A DNA stretch of 64,000 nucleotides. It comes from Echinicola arenosa. GTDB taxonomy: Bacteria; Bacteroidota; Bacteroidia; Cytophagales; Cyclobacteriaceae. The DNA is taken from the NCBI RefSeq assembly GCF_014841125.1, contig NZ_JACYTQ010000002.1, positions 248,001-312,000 on the forward strand, read 5' to 3'. The position numbers were made by a program, and so were the translations under genes. The notes below the pieces were generated by a model that saw nothing but the letters and a program-made list of their open reading frames with translations, did no database searches and had not been told where the DNA came from. Shown in pieces: positions 1 through 9,066 of the stretch (position 1 is the first letter of the stretch; every line of letters starts with the position of its first letter).

Positions 1-85
1 TCTAAAAAACATATTTCAATAATTATGTATATCAGCTATTTTTCCACTAATGACCAAAATGTAAAAGGAGCGTCCGTTTTTGGCA

Positions 86-141
86 CTGTCTTCCATCTCC
101 CGTCTTCGGTCTCCCTACTTCCATCTCCCCTCTCCCGACCA
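86..141. repeat. Degenerate 7-bp tandem repeat, 8 units
   Basis: Eight contiguous 7-bp units fit the consensus CCRTCTY (for example CCATCTC, CCGTCTT, CGGTCTC) with exact phase from 86 to 141. The same motif recurs around the S23-type gene near 3.5-4.2 kb. The degenerate heptamer style resembles the short tandemly repeated repetitive (STRR) sequences known from cyanobacteria; function is unknown. Confidence 0.8.
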
Positions 142-164
142 TTAAATCCACATCATTATCCGCT

Positions 165-188
165 GTCCCGACAGCTAAGCTGCGGGAC
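165..188. repeat. REP-like imperfect palindrome
   Basis: GTCCCG at 165-170 pairs with CGGGAC at 183-188, and CAGCT at 172-176 pairs with AGCTG at 178-182, giving an almost complete 24-bp palindrome with one unpaired A. There is no T-run, so it is more like a REP element than a terminator. Confidence 0.65.
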
Positions 189-197
189 GACTAATCT

Positions 198-212
198 TGA
201 GTCTCTGACTCA
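198..212. repeat. Short perfect hairpin
   Basis: TGAGTC at 198-203 and GACTCA at 207-212 flank a TCT loop. It lies 9 bp from the preceding palindrome and may be the second half of a paired REP-like unit. Confidence 0.5.
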
Positions 213-372
213 GTAATAACATTGTCTGTCAAATGCACAGTGAAGCCCTAATATAGTTCATGCCACATGACTTGGATCAATCTCCCATACCAGATCCCAC
301 CCCTACTACTTGTAAACATTTAATAAACCCTTAATGAACTTAATGCCTTAATGTTTTACCCTAAACCGATCA

Positions 373-2772
373 TTACTCATCCTTCAGCACATTCACCGGA
401 TTGGTAATCGCTGCCCGATAGCTCAGCCCACTCACCGTCAGTAAAGCCACTACCAGTGTCAGCAAACCTGCCAAGCCAAATATCCACCAGTCCAGTGTGG
501 TCTTATAGGCAAAGTTTTCCAGCCACTTTTGTGTCACATAATAGGCCACTGGACAGGCAATCACAAAAGCCAAAACAATCCATTTCGCAAAGTCCCCATT
601 CAGCATTAGCAGGATTTCCTTGACCGAAGCCCCATTTACTTTTCTGATACCTATTTCCTTGGCATGTCTTTCGGTCTTATATAAAAACATGCCCACAATT
701 CCCATCAAACTGATCAGAATGGCCATTAGCGTGAAAAAGCTTACCACTTTCTGAAGCGTTTTTTCATCAGCATACATATAGCTCATCGTTCTCTCCACAT
801 AATCCTTTTCAATAAAAACCCCATTACCTTTTCCAGTTTGCCATATATCCGGATGACTTTCTGCTACAAAAAACTGGTTTTCTTCCAGCAAATCCTCTAA
901 GCCATTGACAAAACTTTGTTTACTTTCTGTACTAAACTTAACAGTTACCGGCCCTATTACTTGGGCTTTGTTGATCATTCTGAAAAACATTGGCTTCAAG
1001 GTCTTTTTGAATGTTTCAAACTTAAAGTCTGCCACTACCCCTATGATAGTTCCACTATTCGTAACTGTCCCTATTGGATGCTTTAAGTTCATGAGCTTGG
1101 CTGCCGCTTCATTAATAATGATTGACTCAGTTGCATCAGTAGTAAATGTTGTAGAAAAATTTCTACCTTCCTTTAATTGGATTTCATAGAGTGGGATGAA
1201 ATTTTCATCTACATTCATAAACTCCAGAACAAACTCCTGGGTAGGAGCATCTTTTAAAGCAACTACACTTTTTTGGCTAGAGCCATACACTGGCAAGCTC
1301 TCTCCAATAGCAATTCCCTTTACATCCGGATGCTGCAAAATCACATCTTCCAACAAACTTGTCCCCTGCATATTACGATAGACATGAATCACCTTATCCG
1401 TATTAAAGCCCTTACCTTGGTTCATCATAAAGTCCAACTGCTTGTAATAAGCAAATGAAAATACCAACATGGCTGTAACTATCACCAGCTGGGCCAAAAC
1501 TACCCCATTCCCAAAGAACAGATTATGTCGCGGGGAAGCCTGTTTTTCCAACACTTCTATTACCCCATGCCGACTTATATGACGGTAAAAATAAATACTG
1601 GTCAAAAATGCAGTAATAAAAATCAAGGCTATGGCAATCACAAAAAAGGACCAGTTTTCATTTATGGATAATACCAACTGATCACGTAAAAACTCATTGA
1701 TATACCCAAGGGAATAATGTAGAAGAAAAGCACCTATAAAACCTGCAACCAAGCATATTAAAAGCGATTCTATAAATACTATCTTTAGGGTATCCATTTT
1801 ATCCATCCCCATCACTTTTCTAAGGGCCATTGATTTGGTATTACGCTCAGAAATAGCTGAATAAAGTAACATAAAGTTGAGCAGGGAAATGATCAGCACG
1901 AGCACACCAATTCCAGCAAAAAGAAAGATCCCTTCTACAGACTGTGTTGCTCTGCTCCAGGTAATTTCACCAGAATGTAAATGAACATCCTCCAACGGCT
2001 GAAGCTTAAAAACTGTTTTGAATCTACTTTTATCTTGCTCAATTTCATTTATTTTTTGTTCCACCCATTCTATATCAGCATCAGTTTTCAAGGTCAAATA
2101 CGCATTAAACCTTTCATCTCCCCTGTTTTCAGATTGACTGGCATATTTATACCGACTCGAATTCTCAATAGGAACTATCAAATCTGGACGAAACGTAGAC
2201 TTTACAGGAAAGTCTTTAAAAACTGCTACAATCCTATAAGCTTCCTTTTGTTCTTTCCCTCCTGTCCGTTCACTTAAATCAAGAAATTGCCCAGTGGCAT
2301 TAGCAATATTTTTGAAATGCTTTTTAGCAAAGGACGCGGAAACAACCATGGTTTTGGAGGCTTTATTAAACTGGCCAAAATCCCCATAGAGCAATTGAAA
2401 GGTAAACAAATCCACTATATCAGGATCTGCAAAACAAGTGTAGCCATGCGCTAATACACCGTTTATATTGATCATTTGATATGCATACCTACTGTAATTT
2501 ATAATTTCCGGGACAGTCTCCGACATTTCCCCAATCACGGCAGGATTAGTATATCCGCTAATATTCTGCTTATCCTCAGTAGAAGTGGTCAGTACCCTAT
2601 AGATATTTTTATAGTTTTTATGGAAGGTATCAAAACCCGTATGATGGGTTACCATCAATAAGGCCAGAAATACGATCCACATGCCCAAACTCAATCCAAT
2701 AAGATTGATAAAGCTATAAGGCCTTTGGTTGATAAAATTCCAGTAAGCGTATTTGATATAATGCAGGATCAT
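373..2772 (-). CDS. MacB/FtsX-type ABC transporter permease
   Basis: This is a 799-residue inner-membrane permease of the FtsX/MacB superfamily in the long Bacteroidota form. A first membrane helix lies at about 20-41, followed by a large periplasmic MacB-like core domain (about 45-280). A bundle of helices covers about 283-445, a second periplasmic domain about 450-675, and the last three helices about 680-790. The duplicated FtsX layout suits mechanotransmission rather than a classical substrate channel. The start overlaps the end of the ATPase gene by 4 bp (ATGA), so the two are translationally coupled. With the HlyD-type adaptor upstream it probably forms a MacAB-like exporter; the substrate cannot be inferred. 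Confidence 0.9.
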   Translation of the reverse strand: MILHYIKYAYWNFINQRPYSFINLIGLSLGMWIVFLALLMVTHHTGFDTFHKNYKNIYRVLTTSTEDKQNISGYTNPAVIGEMSETVPEIINYSRYAYQMININGVLAHGYTCFADPDIVDLFTFQLLYGDFGQFNKASKTMVVSASFAKKHFKNIANATGQFLDLSERTGGKEQKEAYRIVAVFKDFPVKSTFRPDLIVPIENSSRYKYASQSENRGDERFNAYLTLKTDADIEWVEQKINEIEQDKSRFKTVFKLQPLEDVHLHSGEITWSRATQSVEGIFLFAGIGVLVLIISLLNFMLLYSAISERNTKSMALRKVMGMDKMDTLKIVFIESLLICLVAGFIGAFLLHYSLGYINEFLRDQLVLSINENWSFFVIAIALIFITAFLTSIYFYRHISRHGVIEVLEKQASPRHNLFFGNGVVLAQLVIVTAMLVFSFAYYKQLDFMMNQGKGFNTDKVIHVYRNMQGTSLLEDVILQHPDVKGIAIGESLPVYGSSQKSVVALKDAPTQEFVLEFMNVDENFIPLYEIQLKEGRNFSTTFTTDATESIIINEAAAKLMNLKHPIGTVTNSGTIIGVVADFKFETFKKTLKPMFFRMINKAQVIGPVTVKFSTESKQSFVNGLEDLLEENQFFVAESHPDIWQTGKGNGVFIEKDYVERTMSYMYADEKTLQKVVSFFTLMAILISLMGIVGMFLYKTERHAKEIGIRKVNGASVKEILLMLNGDFAKWIVLAFVIACPVAYYVTQKWLENFAYKTTLDWWIFGLAGLLTLVVALLTVSGLSYRAAITNPVNVLKDE

Positions 2773-3458
2773 ACTGTGGTGGGTATTTGTTGGTTTTCGG
2801 TCACGATTTTACCATCAAAAAGATTGATGACCCGATGGGCAAAACTCGCATCATGATGGGAGTGGGTCACCATCACGATGGTCGTTCCTTCCTTATTCAA
2901 CTCAGTCAAAAGGTTCATGACTTCCTGCCCGTTTTTGGAATCCAGGTTACCCGTAGGTTCATCGGCAAGGATCAGCTTGGGATTGGCCACCAAGGCCCGG
3001 GCTATGGCCACCCTTTGCTGCTGACCACCGGAAAGCTGCTTGGGAAAATGCTTCATTCGATGTCCCATTTCCATCCTTTTGAGCACCTCGTGGATACGTT
3101 TTTTCCGCTCTGCTGCTCCCAGTTTAAGATAGATCAAAGGCAGTTCTACATTCTCATATACATTCAACTCGTCGATCAGGTTAAAGCTCTGAAATATAAA
3201 GCCGATATTGCCTTTTCTATGCTTGGTGCGGCTGTTTTCTTTAAGACTGCCCACCTCTTCTCCATCAAAGAGGTACGCCCCAGAACTGGGATTATCCAAA
3301 AGCCCGATAATATTGAGCAAGGTAGACTTGCCACAGCCTGAAGGACCCATAATGGCCAAAAACTCCCCTTTCTTCACATGCAGGTTAATATTGTTCAGTG
3401 CCGTGGTCTCAATTTCCTCGGTCCTAAAAACTTTGGATAAGTTGTTTGCTTTTATCAT
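2769..3458 (-). CDS. ABC transporter ATP-binding protein (MacB/LolD type)
   Basis: This 229-residue cytoplasmic ATPase powers the adjacent FtsX-type permease. Visible motifs are Walker A GPSGCGKST (38-46), Q-loop Gln90, signature LSGGQ (142-146), Walker B LILADEP (162-168) and a switch histidine in MVTHSH. Length and motif spacing match the LolD/MacB ATPase family. It overlaps the permease gene by 4 bp. The adaptor gene, its natural partner, is over 700 bp upstream, separated by a repeat-embedded four-helix-bundle gene. It could belong to a lipoprotein-release or an efflux system; the HlyD adaptor favours efflux. Confidence 0.93.
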   Translation of the reverse strand: MIKANNLSKVFRTEEIETTALNNINLHVKKGEFLAIMGPSGCGKSTLLNIIGLLDNPSSGAYLFDGEEVGSLKENSRTKHRKGNIGFIFQSFNLIDELNVYENVELPLIYLKLGAAERKKRIHEVLKRMEMGHRMKHFPKQLSGGQQQRVAIARALVANPKLILADEPTGNLDSKNGQEVMNLLTELNKEGTTIVMVTHSHHDASFAHRVINLFDGKIVTENQQIPTTV

Positions 3459-3494
3459 AGTGGTATGGTTTTGTACTGTTTTTTTATTTTGTTT

Positions 3495-3522
3495 GAAGAC
3501 GGAAGACGGGAGACAGAAGTCA
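3495..3522. repeat. Degenerate 7-bp tandem repeat, 4 units, inverted
   Basis: Four 7-bp units (GAAGACG, GAAGACG, GGAGACA, GAAGTCA) are the reverse complement of the CCRTCTY heptamer found at 86-141, 3644-3727 and 4147-4188. The array sits about 40 bp upstream of the ATPase start codon. Confidence 0.75.
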
Positions 3523-3525
3523 GCT

Positions 3526-3548
3526 GGTCTGCATTTGCAATGCGGACC
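3526..3548. repeat. REP-like hairpin, 10-bp stem
   Basis: GGTCTGCATT at 3526-3535 pairs with AATGCGGACC at 3539-3548 around a TGC loop, with one G-T wobble. There is no T-run on either side. It is the first of three short palindromes between the heptamer arrays. Confidence 0.7.
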
Positions 3549-3559
3549 TGAAAATAACA

Positions 3560-3574
3560 GGGATTTTCAATCCC
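3560..3574. repeat. Short hairpin GGGATT/AATCCC
   Basis: A perfect 6-bp stem (3560-3565 with 3569-3574) closes a 3-nt loop, 12 bp after the preceding palindrome. Its significance depends on the cluster; alone it could be chance. Confidence 0.5.
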
Positions 3575-3622
3575 ATTCTCATATCTACCTGCTCATTCTA
3601 CATTGGACATTCATCATTCTCT

Positions 3623-3638
3623 AGTTCCTATTGGAACT
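3623..3638. repeat. Short hairpin AGTTCC/GGAACT
   Basis: A 6-bp stem (3623-3628 with 3633-3638) with a 4-nt loop lies directly before the 12-unit heptamer array. It is the third palindrome of the cluster. Confidence 0.5.
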
Positions 3639-3643
3639 CATTT

Positions 3644-3727
3644 TTCATTCTTCATTTTTAATTCCTCATCTCCGTCTTCCATCTTCCGTCTCCCGTCCCC
3701 TATCTTCAGTCCTCCATCCCCCATCCT
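3644..3727. repeat. Degenerate 7-bp tandem repeat, 12 units
   Basis: Twelve consecutive 7-bp units run from 3644 to 3727. The first four are T-rich (TTCATTC, TTCATTT type) and the next eight follow CCRTCYY (CCGTCTT, CCATCTT, CCGTCTC). The array ends at the stop codon of the S23-type gene, as if gene and repeat form one unit. Confidence 0.8.
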
Positions 3728-4080
3728 CATTTAATCCCGTTTCTGAAGGCAATCATCATGTTCATCAAATCAAAAGACTTTTGATAGAACCTTTCAAATT
3801 CCTCTTCTGTAATATAATCTCTTCTTCTGGCCTTATGGAGACAGGTCACCACTTCGGCAAGTGATCGAATTGCATAGCCCATAAATTTCTTCTGCTCAGG
3901 ATTAGATTGTAGAATTGCGCCCTCGGAAATATTCAAAGCCACAGAATCTACCGCCCTCAATAGCTGGGATGAAAGATTGAACATTTCCTTTTTCGGAAAC
4001 TTAGAACTTATCCCATTTACCTCTTCACCCAATTCCATGGCTTTCTGCCAAACAATTAATTTTTCAAACTTGAATTTCAT
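3727..4080 (-). CDS. S23/IVP-type four-helix bundle protein
   Basis: This 117-residue, highly charged, helix-rich protein belongs to the family first described as proteins encoded in 23S rRNA intervening sequences ('S23 ribosomal protein' or four helix bundle protein). Recognisable family features are the N-terminal KFEKLIVWQKAMEL segment, the NISEGA motif in mid-protein, and the FMGYAIRSLAEV segment. The Avd accessory proteins of diversity-generating retroelements share the fold, but no reverse transcriptase or variable repeat is visible here. Proposed functions are nucleic-acid or complex scaffolding; none is established for free-standing copies. It lies between an HlyD adaptor gene and its ABC ATPase gene and is bounded on both sides by heptamer repeats, which suggests insertion as a unit. 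Confidence 0.85.
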   Translation of the reverse strand: MKFKFEKLIVWQKAMELGEEVNGISSKFPKKEMFNLSSQLLRAVDSVALNISEGAILQSNPEQKKFMGYAIRSLAEVVTCLHKARRRDYITEEEFERFYQKSFDLMNMMIAFRNGIK

Positions 4081-4146
4081 GCTATGTCTATTTTAAAAAT
4101 TAAGAACTAGGTTTATTCATCCTAAAGATATTAAAACCACTTTCTT

Positions 4147-4188
4147 CAGTCTTCAAACTTCCGTCTCCAGTCCTCCGTCTCCCCTCTC
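4147..4188. repeat. Degenerate 7-bp tandem repeat, 6 units
   Basis: Six 7-bp units, best seen as CCGTCTC, CAGTCCT, CCGTCTC, occupy 4147-4188 and stop 2 bp from the stop codon of the adaptor gene. Orientation is the same as in the 3644-3727 array, so the S23-type gene is flanked by direct arrays of the same heptamer family. Confidence 0.75.
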
Positions 4189-4190
4189 CC

Positions 4191-5441
4191 TCACTCCAAT
4201 GCCAAACGCTCATTGTCCCCAAAGGCTTCATAGCCCGAAATAATTACTTTTTCCCCGACTTCTAAGCCTTCCAGCACTTCATAGTACTTGGGATTTTGCT
4301 TGCCTATCCTCACATTTCTCCTGTAGGCGTACTCCCCTGCAGGATCCAGGACATAGATCCATTGCCCACCGGAACTTTGAAAAAAGGCTCCTTTAGGAAT
4401 TATAAGTGCCTTTTCAGGATCTCCCAGCTCCAAATTGATATAATAACTCTGGCCATTCCTGATGAGAGCAGGCTTAGCGCCCGAAAAGTGCATATCCACC
4501 TTAAACTTCCCTTCTTTTACTTCTGGATAAATCTTTTTGATCTTTAATGCATAAGCACTGTCATTTTTAGTGATCTTTCCACTCAAAAAAGCAGTGATAC
4601 GATCAATATAGTGCTCATCTATCCAGGATTCGATTTTGTAATCTGACAAATCATGGATTTGTGCAACCGGGCTTCCAGCAGCAACTTGCTGTCCGGGTTC
4701 ACCCTGAAGCATGGCCAATTGTCCTGCCACTGGTGCTTTTACATGGAGATGGTCCAATCGTTCGTAGACCATATCTAGGGTTCTTTTCATCCTTTCCAGA
4801 TCAGCATCCAGCTCCTTGATGGTATTCAGTTTGGCCAGGGAATCCTGCTGGGATTTGATCAAGCTCACCTCCATCTTTTTTTTGGCCAACTCATAATTCT
4901 CCCTGGCTTCGATATACTCTTCCTTTGAAATGAGGTTACGGTCAAACATATATTGCTCTTGTTCGTAATTCCTCTTCGCCTTTCTCAAATGGTATTGCGC
5001 CTCTATTTTATTGGTCTCACTGATGACCATATCAGATTCAAAATTAAATTTAGTTTGACGCAAATCATTTTGCTTGGAAACAAAATCAGCCTCCACATTG
5101 AGAATTTCCATATGAAGATTCCTGTTTTCCAATTTCATGATCGTATCTCCTTCCTTTACCAAGGCCCCTTCTTCCAGGTATTTTTCTACAATCCTCCCCC
5201 CCTCATAGGCATGTAAGTAATAGGTGCTAATAGGCTTAACCTGACCGGAAATATTGATATAATCATCAAAGTCACCTGAAACCACAGTGGCAATACTCAT
5301 ATTTTCCTTATTGACGCGATAGGTAGAAGCAGAACTGCCAAATAACAGCGTCAGCAGCATACCCAGAAATAACAAACTACCCACACCCACAACAACATGC
5401 TTGAGCCTTAGTCCTTTCTTCTTCTCAATCTTCCTGTCCAT
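4191..5441 (-). CDS. HlyD/MacA-type periplasmic adaptor
   Basis: This 416-residue membrane-fusion protein should link an inner-membrane exporter to an outer-membrane channel. It has a short basic N-terminus, a membrane anchor at about 15-35, a lipoyl/barrel-sandwich half-motif near 75-110, a long coiled-coil hairpin at about 110-240 rich in Lys, Glu and Leu, the second lipoyl half near 245-270, then beta-barrel and membrane-proximal domains. It is the first gene of the minus-strand ABC exporter block, but is separated from the ATPase gene by the repeat-flanked S23-type gene. The divergent NtrC-type regulator gene starts 333 bp away and is a plausible regulator. Confidence 0.9.
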   Translation of the reverse strand: MDRKIEKKKGLRLKHVVVGVGSLLFLGMLLTLLFGSSASTYRVNKENMSIATVVSGDFDDYINISGQVKPISTYYLHAYEGGRIVEKYLEEGALVKEGDTIMKLENRNLHMEILNVEADFVSKQNDLRQTKFNFESDMVISETNKIEAQYHLRKAKRNYEQEQYMFDRNLISKEEYIEARENYELAKKKMEVSLIKSQQDSLAKLNTIKELDADLERMKRTLDMVYERLDHLHVKAPVAGQLAMLQGEPGQQVAAGSPVAQIHDLSDYKIESWIDEHYIDRITAFLSGKITKNDSAYALKIKKIYPEVKEGKFKVDMHFSGAKPALIRNGQSYYINLELGDPEKALIIPKGAFFQSSGGQWIYVLDPAGEYAYRRNVRIGKQNPKYYEVLEGLEVGEKVIISGYEAFGDNERLALE

Positions 5442-5774
5442 TGTCCATTGGTTTCCAATTAAACTCCTATTCTAAATATGTTCACCCAAGAAAACGGCAA
5501 AACTCTACTGTAAAACCGCTTTCTGGATGAATTCAAAAAAATAGTCAGTTGTTCCTTATATATCAATAAGCCCTGTACTTTTCCTATCCCCACATTCCAT
5601 TGGCATGCCAAAAAACACAAACAGCTTAACACCAACACATTAACCAACTCCCCATTACTACCAGTAATGCGTTGTGTAAAATTTATGGACGAAAATGTGT
5701 CAAAATATTTTACACTGCTTCCCAATCGCCCCACATTATTTTTAGTTTTAACCATCGATCTTTTTGACTGATAT
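5442..5774. other. Divergent intergenic region, exporter versus two-component pair
   Basis: This 333-bp region separates the adaptor gene (minus) from the sigma-54 response regulator gene (plus). It should hold both promoters. I looked for the sigma-54 -24/-12 pattern (GG-N10-GC) on both strands near the two starts and did not find a convincing match. A perfect 12-bp palindrome at 5600-5611 is the clearest element. Frames on the minus strand here overlap the regulator gene and look like shadows. Confidence 0.6.
5600..5611. promoter_or_regulatory. Perfect palindrome TTGGCATGCCAA
   Basis: A 12-bp perfect palindrome lies midway between two divergent genes, 159 bp from the adaptor start and 164 bp from the regulator start. 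Such a position would suit an activator-binding site for the NtrC-type regulator, whose Fis-like DNA-binding domain normally recognises inverted repeats. Only one copy was seen, so this is tentative. Confidence 0.35.
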
Positions 5775-7136
5775 ATGGAAGGGAAAATTTTAATCGTAGA
5801 TGACAACAAATCAATACTCAATGCCTTGGAATTTCTTCTGGAAGAGGAATACTCCTGCATTACAAGTATCTCCAACCCCAACAAGATCACCGGAATAGGA
5901 GACCTGGATAGCTATGATGCTGTACTATTGGACATGAACTTTTCTGCAGAGATCAATACAGGAAATGAAGGACTATATTGGCTGAGGCAAATCAAGGCCA
6001 AAGCACCTGAACTTCCGGTAATTATGATCACGGCCTATGGTGACATGGATTTGGCCATCAAATCACTGAAAGAAGGGGCGGTGGATTTTGTGCTCAAACC
6101 TTGGGACAACCAAAAATTACTTGCCACACTCCGCTCGGCATATCAACTCGGGCAATCCAGAAAAGAAGTGGGAAATCTCAAAAAAAATCAGGCCAACCTT
6201 AAAAGCCTGATCAGTCAAAAGCAACAGCCTATTATCGGAGAATCCAATGCGATCAAAGAAATGCTCGCCATCATTCGCAAAGTAGCCCAAACCACCGCCA
6301 ATGTACTGATAACAGGTGAAAATGGTACTGGCAAAGAATTAATAGCCCAAGAGATCCACCGCAACTCACCAAGGGCCAATGAGGTCTTTGTGGGAGTGGA
6401 CATGGGATCCATACAGGAAAGCCTTTTTGAAAGTGAACTATTCGGACATGTGAAGGGATCCTTTACAGATGCCAAAGAAGACCGGACAGGCAAATTCGAA
6501 GCCGCACATGGAGGCTCGCTATTTTTGGATGAAATAGGCAATCTTTCTTATCCCCTACAATCCAAACTGCTCAGTACCCTTCAAAACAGGGAAGTTGTAA
6601 AAGTAGGTAGCAATAAGCCTGTTCCCATTGATATCCGTTTGATCTGTGCCACCAACAGCAACTTGGACGAAATGGTAAGCAATGGAGATTTCAGGGAAGA
6701 TTTGCTATACCGAATCAATACCATCCATATCGAAGTCCCACCACTTCGGGAGCGTGGCGAGGACATTTTATTGCTGGCCAATTTCTTCACCAAAAAATAT
6801 GGTTCCAAGTATGGTAAAGGAGCATTGAGCATCCATAAAAATGCCCAGAAGAAACTGATGGACTACAGTTGGCCGGGGAATATCCGCGAGCTGCAGCATA
6901 CCATAGAACGCAGCGTAATTTTATGTGAGGGAAGCATTCTTCAGGGAGAAGATATACTGCTAAAGCAACGGTCACACCCAGCACTGAACGAGTTGGAAAT
7001 GACCTTGGAAGATATGGAAAGGGATATGATTGCCAATGCCCTATCCCGACATCATGGAAATTATACTGCAGCAGCAGAACAGCTGGGCGTCAGCAGACAG
7101 ACCCTCTATAATAAGACCAAACGCTATGGTCTTTGA
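5775..7136 (+). CDS. Sigma-54-dependent response regulator, NtrC family
   Basis: This 453-residue cytoplasmic transcription activator has three domains. The receiver (about 3-122) has acidic residues DD at 9-10, phospho-acceptor Asp53 and Lys108. The AAA+ domain (about 150-385) has Walker A GENGTGKE (181-188), Walker B SLFLDEIG (248-255) and an arginine-finger region near 310-327. The Fis-type helix-turn-helix is at about 428-450. The sigma-54 contact loop, normally GAFTGA, reads GSFTDA (228-233). The sensor kinase gene follows after 36 bp, so the two form one operon. It likely controls the neighbouring exporter genes or envelope functions, by position only. Confidence 0.93.
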   Translation: MEGKILIVDDNKSILNALEFLLEEEYSCITSISNPNKITGIGDLDSYDAVLLDMNFSAEINTGNEGLYWLRQIKAKAPELPVIMITAYGDMDLAIKSLKEGAVDFVLKPWDNQKLLATLRSAYQLGQSRKEVGNLKKNQANLKSLISQKQQPIIGESNAIKEMLAIIRKVAQTTANVLITGENGTGKELIAQEIHRNSPRANEVFVGVDMGSIQESLFESELFGHVKGSFTDAKEDRTGKFEAAHGGSLFLDEIGNLSYPLQSKLLSTLQNREVVKVGSNKPVPIDIRLICATNSNLDEMVSNGDFREDLLYRINTIHIEVPPLRERGEDILLLANFFTKKYGSKYGKGALSIHKNAQKKLMDYSWPGNIRELQHTIERSVILCEGSILQGEDILLKQRSHPALNELEMTLEDMERDMIANALSRHHGNYTAAAEQLGVSRQTLYNKTKRYGL

Positions 7137-7172
7137 TTTTTTATCAATTTTAAACGAAAACCATCACTGTTC

Positions 7173-8537
7173 ATGGCCAGCAAACACCTCTACTTTCAAA
7201 TCTGCCTAAGGGTCCTTCTGCTCCTAGCCTCCTCGCTTTTATTTGCCCATCTTTATATAATAGGCGAATATACTTTGAGCCTATATATTGCTGTCATCAT
7301 ACTTTTTCAAACGGTTTGGCTTATCCGCTTTTTAAACAAAACCAACCGTAAAATCGCCTTTTTCTTCAATGCCATTGAAAACAATGACTCCACCATCAAC
7401 TTTCCTTATGACATTAAGACAAGATCCATCCGAGAACTCAATTCAAGCCTAAACAGGGTAAACAAGCTCCTTCAGGAGGCCAAAATCAATATCAAAGAAC
7501 AGGAACAATATTACCAAACCATTCTGGAAGAAGCCGAAACAGGAATCCTTGTCTTGAATGGAACCGGACATATTATTCACTCGAACAAAACAGCCAGGCA
7601 GCTATTGAATTATCCACACCTGACACACATTCAACAGCTTCAGCCTATCAGTGAAAGCCTTTTCCAAACCCTTCAAAAGCAACAAAGCTTCGATCAGAAA
7701 TTGATCCAAATACCCAATGAACGAGAAAGTATTCATCTCACTGCCAAGGCTAGAAAACTAATTCTCAAAGAGGAAAATCTGCTCATCGTGGTCATTCAGA
7801 ATATCCACAAGGAACTGGATAACCAAGAAGTCGAATCATGGCAACGCTTGATCAGGGTGCTGACTCATGAAATCATGAACTCTGTTGCCCCTATTACCTC
7901 TATTTCCGAAACCCTTTTGGGATATTTCAAAAAAGACGGAGAATTGGTCAAACCAGCATCAATCACCCAAGAAAAAGTTAAGCAAGCCGTCAAGGCCCTG
8001 GATACCATCAATTACCAGGGGAGCAACTTAATGAAGTTTACCGATTCTTACAGAACATTGACCAAAATCCCTGAACCAGACAAAAAGCTGCTGAACGTGA
8101 GATCCATTTTCGAAACCGTCAGGATACTGGTCAGCCAAGAAGATAGTGTAGATAGGATTTCCTTCAAAACAACCATTGCCCCTAAGGAATTAGAGGTTTA
8201 TGCCGATGAAAAGTTAATCACCCTAGTGCTGCTCAACTTGATCAAAAACGCCATTCATTCACTGGCTGATCAGGACAATGGGCAGATTGAATTATCAGGA
8301 GAGAAAGATGAGCTAGGTCGGCTCGCACTTATGGTGAGTGATAATGGCCCCGGAATTTCACCATGTATGCTCCAAAAAATATTTGTCCCCTTTTTTACCA
8401 CCAAAAAAGACGGATCAGGAATTGGGCTAAGCCTATCCAAGCATATCATGAAGCTGCATCATGGCAGTATAGAGGTCAAGTCTAAACCACAGGTCAAAAC
8501 AATCTTTTCACTGCATTTCCAGCAGGGATTGGGCTAA
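7173..8537 (+). CDS. Sensor histidine kinase, NtrY-like
   Basis: This 454-residue inner-membrane kinase is the partner of the NtrC-type regulator just upstream. Two membrane helices (about 10-28 and 35-53) are joined by a very short loop, so there is almost no periplasmic sensor. A linker and PAS-like domain cover about 112-215. The H-box is LTHEIMNSVAP with His232, the N-box has Asn359 (LIKNAIHS), G1 is DNGPG (390-394) and G2 is GSGIG (414-418). A membrane-embedded or cytoplasmic signal is more likely than a periplasmic ligand. Translation probably continues from the regulator mRNA. Confidence 0.92.
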   Translation: MASKHLYFQICLRVLLLLASSLLFAHLYIIGEYTLSLYIAVIILFQTVWLIRFLNKTNRKIAFFFNAIENNDSTINFPYDIKTRSIRELNSSLNRVNKLLQEAKINIKEQEQYYQTILEEAETGILVLNGTGHIIHSNKTARQLLNYPHLTHIQQLQPISESLFQTLQKQQSFDQKLIQIPNERESIHLTAKARKLILKEENLLIVVIQNIHKELDNQEVESWQRLIRVLTHEIMNSVAPITSISETLLGYFKKDGELVKPASITQEKVKQAVKALDTINYQGSNLMKFTDSYRTLTKIPEPDKKLLNVRSIFETVRILVSQEDSVDRISFKTTIAPKELEVYADEKLITLVLLNLIKNAIHSLADQDNGQIELSGEKDELGRLALMVSDNGPGISPCMLQKIFVPFFTTKKDGSGIGLSLSKHIMKLHHGSIEVKSKPQVKTIFSLHFQQGLG

Positions 8538-8775
8538 TGAATATTTTCAATTATACTGATGTCCGCTTTTTGGCTATACTTAAAATCCACAGATAAGGGA
8601 ATATACATTTAGACTTCTTTAACAAAACAATCAGTGAACGGGAATTACAAATTCCTAAGATATGAGGATGAATAGGCTTACTTTACCCAGTTGGCGTGAG
8701 ATTGCGTAATTTGTGTGTAAAAACTGGATGATCATATTAAAATTTAACATTTTTAACGTTCTAGTATAACCTATA

Positions 8776-8830
8776 TTTAACCCCTATTTAAGCCGTGTTT
8801 AACTCGTGTTTAACCCGTGTATTAGCCGTG
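8776..8830. repeat. 11-bp tandem repeat, 5 units
   Basis: Five contiguous 11-bp units follow the consensus TTTAACCCGTG: the first is TTTAACCCCTA, the middle three match closely (TTTAAGCCGTG, TTTAACTCGTG, TTTAACCCGTG) and the fifth is TATTAGCCGTG. The period is about one helical turn, so a protein bound to each unit would lie on one face of the DNA. Confidence 0.8.
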
Positions 8831-8964
8831 TTTCTACTATAAAAGAGTTATGTAATACTCGTAGTTAAGTATAGTGTTATCAAGGGAATGACTATGGACA
8901 CTTCCTCTGCTCCCCAAAAAAATGCTTGATCCCATATCGACAATTAACTAAGAATAATACAAAA

Positions 8965-8995
8965 AAATCCTCAAAGCCAAAGGCCTTGAGGATTT
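8965..8995 (-). terminator. Intrinsic terminator of the RND operon
   Basis: A 14-bp stem (8965-8978 with 8982-8995) has a 3-nt loop. The one DNA mismatch becomes a G-U pair only in minus-strand RNA, and that RNA continues with a T-run. It therefore terminates the minus-strand RND operon ending at 9067. Confidence 0.85.
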
Positions 8996-9066
8996 TACAT
9001 CAATTATTCAGTCTATAATAAATTAATCTTGAACTGAACAGCTACGAACACATTGGCATTATTGCA

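Follow-up and report, generated by a model that had tools for sequence, protein, structure and literature searches.

An S23-Type Gene Between Inverted Heptamer Arrays as a Probable Mobile Unit in a Bacterial Exporter Operon

Introduction

Avd is the pentameric, basic partner of a reverse transcriptase (RT). The S23 family (PF05635) resembles Avd, as is also stated in the available text of PMC10053308. S23-bearing intervening sequences (IVSs) of 23S rRNA have complementary ends that form a stem, and the stem is cut by RNase III, according to the portion of PMC4990558 at hand. In the accessible text of PMC4692102, G-rich heptamer repeats from Xanthomonas and Nostoc are described as G-quadruplex repeats. 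Paired heptamer arrays were known before; a link between heptamers and S23 or PF05635 had not previously been reported in the literature covered, that is, in the titles and abstract openings among the matches listed from open-access literature.

Here we analysed an S23-type gene which lies in an ABC exporter operon of Echinicola arenosa and is accompanied by heptamer arrays on both sides. We consider it probable (about 0.6) that the gap around this gene holds a mobile, IVS-like unit at a stop-start junction, in which an Avd-like S23 gene is bracketed by inverted heptamer arms.

Results

An S23-type gene splits an ABC exporter operon

The window, i.e., the whole stretch of 64,000 nucleotides that was analysed (contig NZ_JACYTQ010000002.1, positions 248,001 to 312,000), carries the following features near its start, given here in the order of the minus-strand operon.

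4191..5441, minus strand: HlyD-type adaptor gene (PF13437 match), the upstream host gene of the junction
4143..4190 (about), minus strand: 5′ arm, a heptamer array of the GGAGACGG type, starting 2 bp past the adaptor stop codon
3727..4080, minus strand: S23-type (23S_rRNA_IVP) four-helix-bundle gene, 117 aa (PF05635, TIGR02436)
3634..3730 (about), minus strand: inner 3′ array of ~12 units in the orientation of the 5′ arm, from the S23 stop codon, with terminal heptamers of the GAATGAA type
3592..3622, minus strand: short stretch of GAATGAT-type heptamers
3526..3638, minus strand: three short palindromes read off the sequence (about 3622-3638, 3559-3573 and 3526-3548)
3491..3519 (about), minus strand: 3′ outer arm, a four-unit inverted heptamer array of the GTCTTCC type, directly before the ATPase gene
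2769..3458, minus strand: ABC ATPase gene (PF00005, 1.7e-38), the downstream host gene of the junction
373..2772, minus strand: FtsX/MacB-type permease gene (profile match)
85..140, minus strand: orphan heptamer array with the word of the gap arrays, between the exporter permease gene and a second permease gene

By the list of open reading frames (ORFs), the gap between the adaptor and ATPase genes is 732 bp long, and the ATPase and permease genes overlap by 4 bp. An earlier note on this DNA had described an S23-type gene that splits an ABC exporter operon and has heptamer arrays on both sides, and the coordinates, the PF05635 and TIGR02436 matches and the pattern counts all agree with this description. 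A three-unit, 17-base heptamer pattern had 7 partly overlapping matches in the whole window vs. 0.12 expected, and 100 shuffles gave at most 1. Six of the seven matches fell inside the adaptor-ATPase gap and one at 89-105; in another phase, the pattern had no match. The minus-strand order given in the note (adaptor gene, array, S23 gene, ~12-unit array, palindromes, four-unit inverted array, ATPase gene) was likewise found on the sequence. No inverted partner was seen for the orphan array at 85-140. An Rfam scan of positions 1-9000 of the window gave no match, and the S23 gene is flanked by the adaptor and ATPase genes, not enclosed in a 23S rRNA gene. Farther along the window, at 8776-8833, TTTAACCCGTG forms a tandem repeat of 11 bp in 5.3 copies.

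The S23 protein and its genomic company

The S23-type gene matched PF05635 with an E-value of 1.5e-30 and 105.9 bits (cut-off 33.8), and TIGR02436 with 98 bits (cut-off 24). The AlphaFold2 model of the protein had a pLDDT of 95.6. In a structure search, its best matches were two S23 structures, 2gsc and 2rld, both of which comprise five chains as deposited and have a title that names no function, followed by weaker matches to Avd (4dwl) and to a ribonucleoprotein of a diversity-generating retroelement (DGR; 8ube), with TM scores of 0.72-0.76 and E-values of 0.065-0.7. The model suggests that S23 and Avd are alike in fold, but the E-value is not significant. Eight gene pairs were tried for dN/dS, three of them with saturated dS; the five finite values were.02-.10, with a broken S23 partner in three of these five pairs. 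Since dN/dS is this low, the S23 protein has been under purifying selection until recently.

Genes of the S23 type are very common: a match was found in 86 of 98 genomes drawn from the host's family, with up to 14 per genome. The E. arenosa genome has six PF05635 matches on contigs C12, C16 and C3. Its three RVT_1 matches that exceed the family cut-off, of which one is partial and contains a stop, lie on contigs C18, C15 and C2, which carry no PF05635 match; no RVT_1 match therefore lies beside an S23 gene in this genome, and this absence counts against a mobile unit. No transposase or recombinase was found in the unit, where the scanned ORF of the gap, i.e., the S23 gene, matched the S23 family only (overlapping antisense ORFs were left out).

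Period-7 arrays accompany S23 genes across bacteria

In the E. arenosa genome, short-period arrays were seen by eye seemingly beside all six PF05635 matches, each with another word; some of them looked weak, and one had a period of 8. For a broader survey, we used 80 named S23 loci, the best 80 of at least 579 confirmed stretches, chosen regardless of repeats. In the 150-bp flanks, lag 7 was the best among lags 4-12 in 60 of the 75 testable loci (5 of the 80 were dropped for short or masked flanks), and lag 8 in 6. Away from S23, lag 7 was the best in 4/61 cases at 1 kb, 8/54 at 2 kb and 7/48 at 3 kb. The lag-7 self-match within 100 bp of S23 was.400 in 53 Bacteroidota-like loci and.386 in the 27 others vs. 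about.24-.31 at lags other than multiples of 7; more than 200 bp from S23, the lag-7 signal was gone.

At least one flank had an array within 300 bp in 45/51 Bacteroidota-like and 19/24 other loci (64/75), and both flanks had one in 32/51 and 15/24 (47/75); seven other lags gave, on at least one side, 2-8 of the 51 and 1-4 of the 24. In these counts, as in the self-match, the phylum groups were set by hand from record titles, with Ignavibacteria counted as Bacteroidota-like. An additional survey, with 32 of 35 loci, also supported the period of 7. Arrays were also recognised by eye in loci of Geobacter, Acidobacteriaceae, Clostridia, a cyanobacterium, Gemmataceae and a Methanophagales archaeon. 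A minority of loci have a unit length of 8 or 6, which we counted against the mobile-unit reading; in one Geobacter copy (L288), the arms looked to have a period of 6.

The earlier note had expected the word CCRTCTY next to S23-type genes elsewhere. The association itself holds, with period 7 and inverted arms in the named loci, but the word does not: the heptamers differ at other S23 genes, CCRTCTY is local to the unit group of the window, and its use as a diagnostic word was rejected.

The notion of genome-wide repeats was also rejected for E. arenosa, where, by our own reading of 864 kb, clear arrays are almost confined to S23 loci. Strict arrays outside ORFs in these 864 kb numbered 2 at lag 7, with 2 and 7 at lags 6 and 11; relaxed arrays numbered 39 at lag 7, with 32 and 28 at lags 8 and 10, which means that most relaxed hits are noise. 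With neighbours defined by a simple longest-ORF rule, a lag-7 array was found in 85/114 gaps that adjoin S23, in 47/187 of the remaining co-directional gaps on the same contigs and in 6/66 convergent or divergent gaps. On reading the 47 co-directional control gaps, several adjoin a second S23 gene, several hold arm pairs without S23, and some look chance-like. In Geobacter sp. AOG1, a long array of a heptamer near the word of one S23 unit lies 20 kb from the nearest S23 match. An Rfam scan of 14 of the 80 named loci gave one Flavo-1 RNA, and hence no S23 gene seated in rRNA for comparison.

Some further features of the arrays were observed. Arms of L003 (E. arenosa) and the 3′ arm of L082 look to have a period of 8 instead of 7 (GGTTAAAC and TCAAACTA). 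In L198, L177 and L071, the 3′ arm is tandemly duplicated together with adjoining sequence. The S23 gap of genome G001 (L008, about 3350-3440) contains a heptamer stub whose neighbouring sequence, TTACTGG..ATTGCGGATAT, resembles that of a stub found without S23 in the E. arenosa genome (L205, G000:C12:352679-352715); this is perhaps another small dispersed repeat.

The two arms of a locus match each other

To compare the two arms, the 160 bp upstream were aligned with the reverse complement of the 160 bp downstream, with 6 of the 80 loci dropped for short or masked flanks. The score was higher within a locus (18.07) than between different loci (9.41, sd 2.77); none of 10000 permutations of the arm partners reached the same-locus score, the maximum being 11.0. 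The own partner arm was the best of all in 35/74 loci, a share that we counted against the mobile-unit reading. The direct orientation also scored above chance (12.32 vs. 9.06, own partner best in 9/74), and additional arrays of like orientation are present in some loci, the window among them. Arm identity depends on the register: it was.689 on the best diagonal,.523 on other in-phase diagonals and.266 out of phase (n = 42). Since the arms match within a locus and their words differ between loci, the word changes from locus to locus with its complementarity kept.

Predicted arm duplexes in 52 loci had a mean of −38.7 kcal/mol with the own partner vs. −20.9 kcal/mol with other partners; by duplex energy, the own partner was the best in just 13/52, which again weighs against the mobile-unit reading. 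In the predicted RNA fold of the E. arenosa gap, the first array pairs with the last and encloses the S23 gene (MFE −193.7, z −2.95 from 20 shuffles). As in IVSs, complementary ends are thus predicted to form a terminal stem around the S23 ORF, both at this locus and at others. Five remnants without S23 (L011, L200, L247, L248 and L250) have mismatched arm words, unlike most intact units; such remnants were also counted against the mobile-unit reading.

Units mostly sit between the stop and start codons of co-directional genes

The sequence context was tabulated for 70 of the 80 loci, and in 66 of them both gaps were 450 bp or shorter. Both neighbours were co-directional with S23 in 58 of these 66 loci. 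Upstream arrays, found in 54 loci, started within 20 nt of the stop codon in 48, and downstream arrays, found in 49, ended within 20 nt of the start codon in 47; these distances are never below −20, since the searched stretch extended only 20 nt into each neighbour (taken by the same longest-ORF rule), and short gaps favour closeness. Arrays were present on both sides in only 42/66 loci of this table and 47/75 of the flank count, and this too speaks against the mobile-unit reading. The median arm length was 45 nt, or about 6 units. In 35 of the 42 loci with both arrays, the purine content was higher in the upstream array than in the downstream one. This polarity seems to follow the host transcript, because three units with a reversed S23 gene keep it relative to the operon.

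Junctions are occupied, empty or altered

The earlier note had proposed an empty site at the exporter locus as a check, and empty junctions were indeed found. Among 21 orthologous or paralogous exporter loci, the adaptor-ATPase junction was readable in 20; the unit was absent from 8, with gaps of 14-29 bp, and an S23 gene was present in 5 (E. arenosa, G001, G009, G011 and G034). The S23 gene in G034 belongs to another subfamily and is reversed, the one in G001 looks broken, and in G007 there are arms alone, mismatched. In the genus g96, 40 genomes were searched, 26 had a match, and 25 junctions were readable. S23 of the window subfamily occupied 14 of the 25, five times in a broken-looking form (L187, L188, L195 and L196 have stops, and the L197 match goes no further than residue 85). 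One g96 species (L186) had an empty 18-bp junction. In L194 and in L182 and L183, which are near-identical, S23 was missing and the arms matched each other, with yet another word. In G105, a second, reversed S23 gene of the window subfamily follows the ATPase gene, and in G194 this subfamily is found only there, before the permease gene.

The lepA-folD junction, readable in 23 of 30 loci, gave a similar variety. Gaps of 492-665 bp were found in six genomes of the window's genus. Of these six, G009 and G010 had intact PF05635 genes, with differing kinds and arms; E. arenosa had a PF05635 match with two stops; in G003, G004 and G006, only short ORFs remain. Arm remnants were left in G001, G007 and G008, and a one-sided array in G011. 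A clear array pair was absent from G002 and G005 (126 and 119 bp), and 11 more distant genomes had gaps of 2-71 bp. Besides the lepA-folD and exporter junctions, which were tested, thiolase, sdhA and mutA were recognised by reading as recurrent junctions.

The sister genomes G397 and G391 are alike at 105-110 of 110 bases in most flanking blocks, and their ATPase-permease gaps are wholly different: one holds a reversed S23 unit, and the other has unlike arms and nothing that matches the window S23. The change (L276/L277) runs from the stop codon to about 45 nt into the permease gene; this excess divergence inside the permease start resembles a co-conversion tract confined to one side. No target-site duplication was discernible by eye in the pairs compared, and no terminal motif, transfer intermediate or direct movement was seen among the junctions compared.

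The heptamer word follows the S23 tree

The S23 tree of exporter units groups the loci by heptamer word, and the adaptor tree does not. With the types assigned by eye in 18 loci (L196 carries both types and was scored as GATG, and the count omits L188, L072 and the operon-B loci), the word required 2 changes on the S23 tree, the minimum for three states, vs. 6 on the adaptor tree. An S23 tree constrained to keep the host clade L195-L199 intact was rejected (AU p 5.8e-9), this clade having been picked from the adaptor tree after both trees were seen. The E. arenosa S23 pair, in operon B, groups with the operon-A genes L013 and L188 (93/93), and the adaptors of the two operon types are only about 40% identical. 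A tree that separates 20 operon-A genes from this pair was also rejected (AU p.008), where the opposing set comprises two other-context genes as well, so that the test does not isolate the pair.

As expected of a mobile element, there are occupied and empty versions of the site and a phylogeny unlike that of the host. Taken together, these sequence comparisons indicate that the heptamer travels with S23 and that the unit has been gained, lost or exchanged independently of the host genes, and its movement relative to them is well supported.

Discussion

The unit in the window is one of many copies in a widespread class. If it is mobile, the arms would pair into a stem in the polycistronic mRNA and thereby loop out the S23 cistron, so that the unit may be tolerated in the operon without harm. 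The stem, or a cut at the junction, could free the S23 message and spare its neighbours. The S23 protein, like Avd, would bind nucleic acid, probably the arms, and may act in copying or insertion together with an enzyme supplied in trans. The arms would evolve in concert, such that a new word spreads through both of them. The preference for the operon direction could reflect either RNA-guided insertion or selection against the other orientation, and arm-only pairs may be derivatives of the unit. Of the proposal in the earlier note, namely a non-autonomous, possibly RNA-directed mobile unit, the part that the gene and its repeats form one unit which entered the operon gains support from the empty junctions and the S23-array association. 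The words "non-autonomous" and "RNA-directed" are not borne out, the three RVT_1 matches lying on contigs without S23 and a transfer intermediate not being seen.

The presence of arms without S23 was counted against the mobile-unit reading, and S23 may therefore be a passenger. An explanation of this kind takes the arrays as repeats of a general type (STRR-like or G-rich heptamers) produced by slippage between operon genes, where S23 genes merely tend to be found. Paired heptamer arrays are indeed known from Xanthomonas (70 convergent pairs in Xcc, PMC4692102) and Geobacter (PMC2700814), with no mention of S23 in the main text of either, and lag-7 arrays occurred in a quarter of our co-directional control gaps (47/187). 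But several of these gaps, by reading, flank another S23 gene, clear arrays are almost confined to S23 loci in the E. arenosa sequence read, the signal vanishes beyond 200 bp, and the word tracks the S23 phylogeny and not that of the host, making slippage an improbable account. Equally unlikely, in our opinion, is a cis-acting regulatory module in which a five-subunit S23 ring binds about five heptamers of the operon mRNA, one per subunit, and tunes the neighbours or itself. The model for such binding is TRAP, which binds triplets, one per subunit. The closeness of the arms to stop and start codons, the co-direction of S23 with the operon, the median arm of 45 nt (about 6 units), the five chains of both solved relatives and the purifying selection on S23 all suit this model; it does not sit well with a patchy distribution within one genus, empty junctions and broken S23 genes, nor with the unrelated operons, the change of word between close S23 relatives and the occasional reversal of S23.

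Plain homologous exchange of the junction from one species to another could also produce the conflict with the host tree. Recombination in the conserved flanking genes would then swap junctions, and S23 units would be old residents moved only in this way. The near-identical flanks around wholly different gaps in G397 and G391, the excess divergence extending ~45 nt into the next gene, just as homologous exchange would give and so counted against the mobile-unit reading, and the recurrence of the same junctions (lepA-folD and the exporter, with thiolase, sdhA and mutA by reading) all fit. Such an exchange leaves unexplained why one S23 subfamily occupies unrelated junctions, why different subfamilies occupy one junction within one genus, and why there are reversed units and in-phase inverted arms; as the whole explanation we find it very unlikely.

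A mobile unit is thus the reading we prefer, and it may be extended, tentatively and at less than even odds, to a pan-bacterial mobile class that inserts in sense into the stop-start junctions of operons. Each S23 clade would have its own word, rewritten in concert in the two arms. Copies consisting of arms alone, to which the Xanthomonas, Geobacter and Nostoc arrays may belong, would be non-autonomous derivatives, and S23-bearing rRNA IVSs would be a branch that landed in rRNA. If true, insertion in the sense direction would suggest that the intermediate or the target is RNA. The function of S23 becomes testable once it is tied to inverted heptamer arms, and one explanation is offered for several heptamer repeats reported separately. 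It is also suggested that rRNA intervening sequences are part of a larger class living in messenger RNA. A separated array pair that keeps one shared, changing seven-letter word would be an unusual case of concerted evolution.

Comparison with known systems

The TAACTGA repeats (PMC4679880), as far as described in the text available, are intergenic heptamer direct repeats found in Bacteroidetes and others (Beggiatoaceae), and in this they resemble the window arms. Unlike the arms, they have one fixed word and, in one genome, mostly precede start codons directly, with a single indirect repeat there. The Geobacter metallireducens sites, too, consist of four or five tandem 7-8-mers in opposite-strand pairs at a variable distance, but are called putative sites of a global regulator in the part of PMC2700814 covered, the main text of which does not contain the term S23. 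The Xanthomonas repeats share with the window the heptamers and the convergent pairs, in Xcc and Xac, with few pairs in Nostoc; the repeats lie mostly within 50 bp after a stop codon (sense) or before an ORF (antisense) and prefer co-directional genes, according to the main text of PMC4692102, from which the terms S23 and 23S are absent.

With the Avd of DGRs (4dwl, 8ube), the S23 model shares a four-helix-bundle fold (TM 0.72-0.76, E 0.065-0.7); unlike avd, the S23 gene of the window has no reverse transcriptase alongside. The unit differs from the IVSs of 23S rRNA in that it is seated in a gap between protein genes, its arms are locus-variable heptamer arrays, and its stem is predicted, whereas in the rRNA cases the stem is cut by RNase III. 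It is like these IVSs, as they appear in the available text of PMC4990558, in its sporadic distribution, for which horizontal acquisition has been proposed in the case of the IVSs, and in having an S23-family ORF inside an element with complementary, stem-forming ends.
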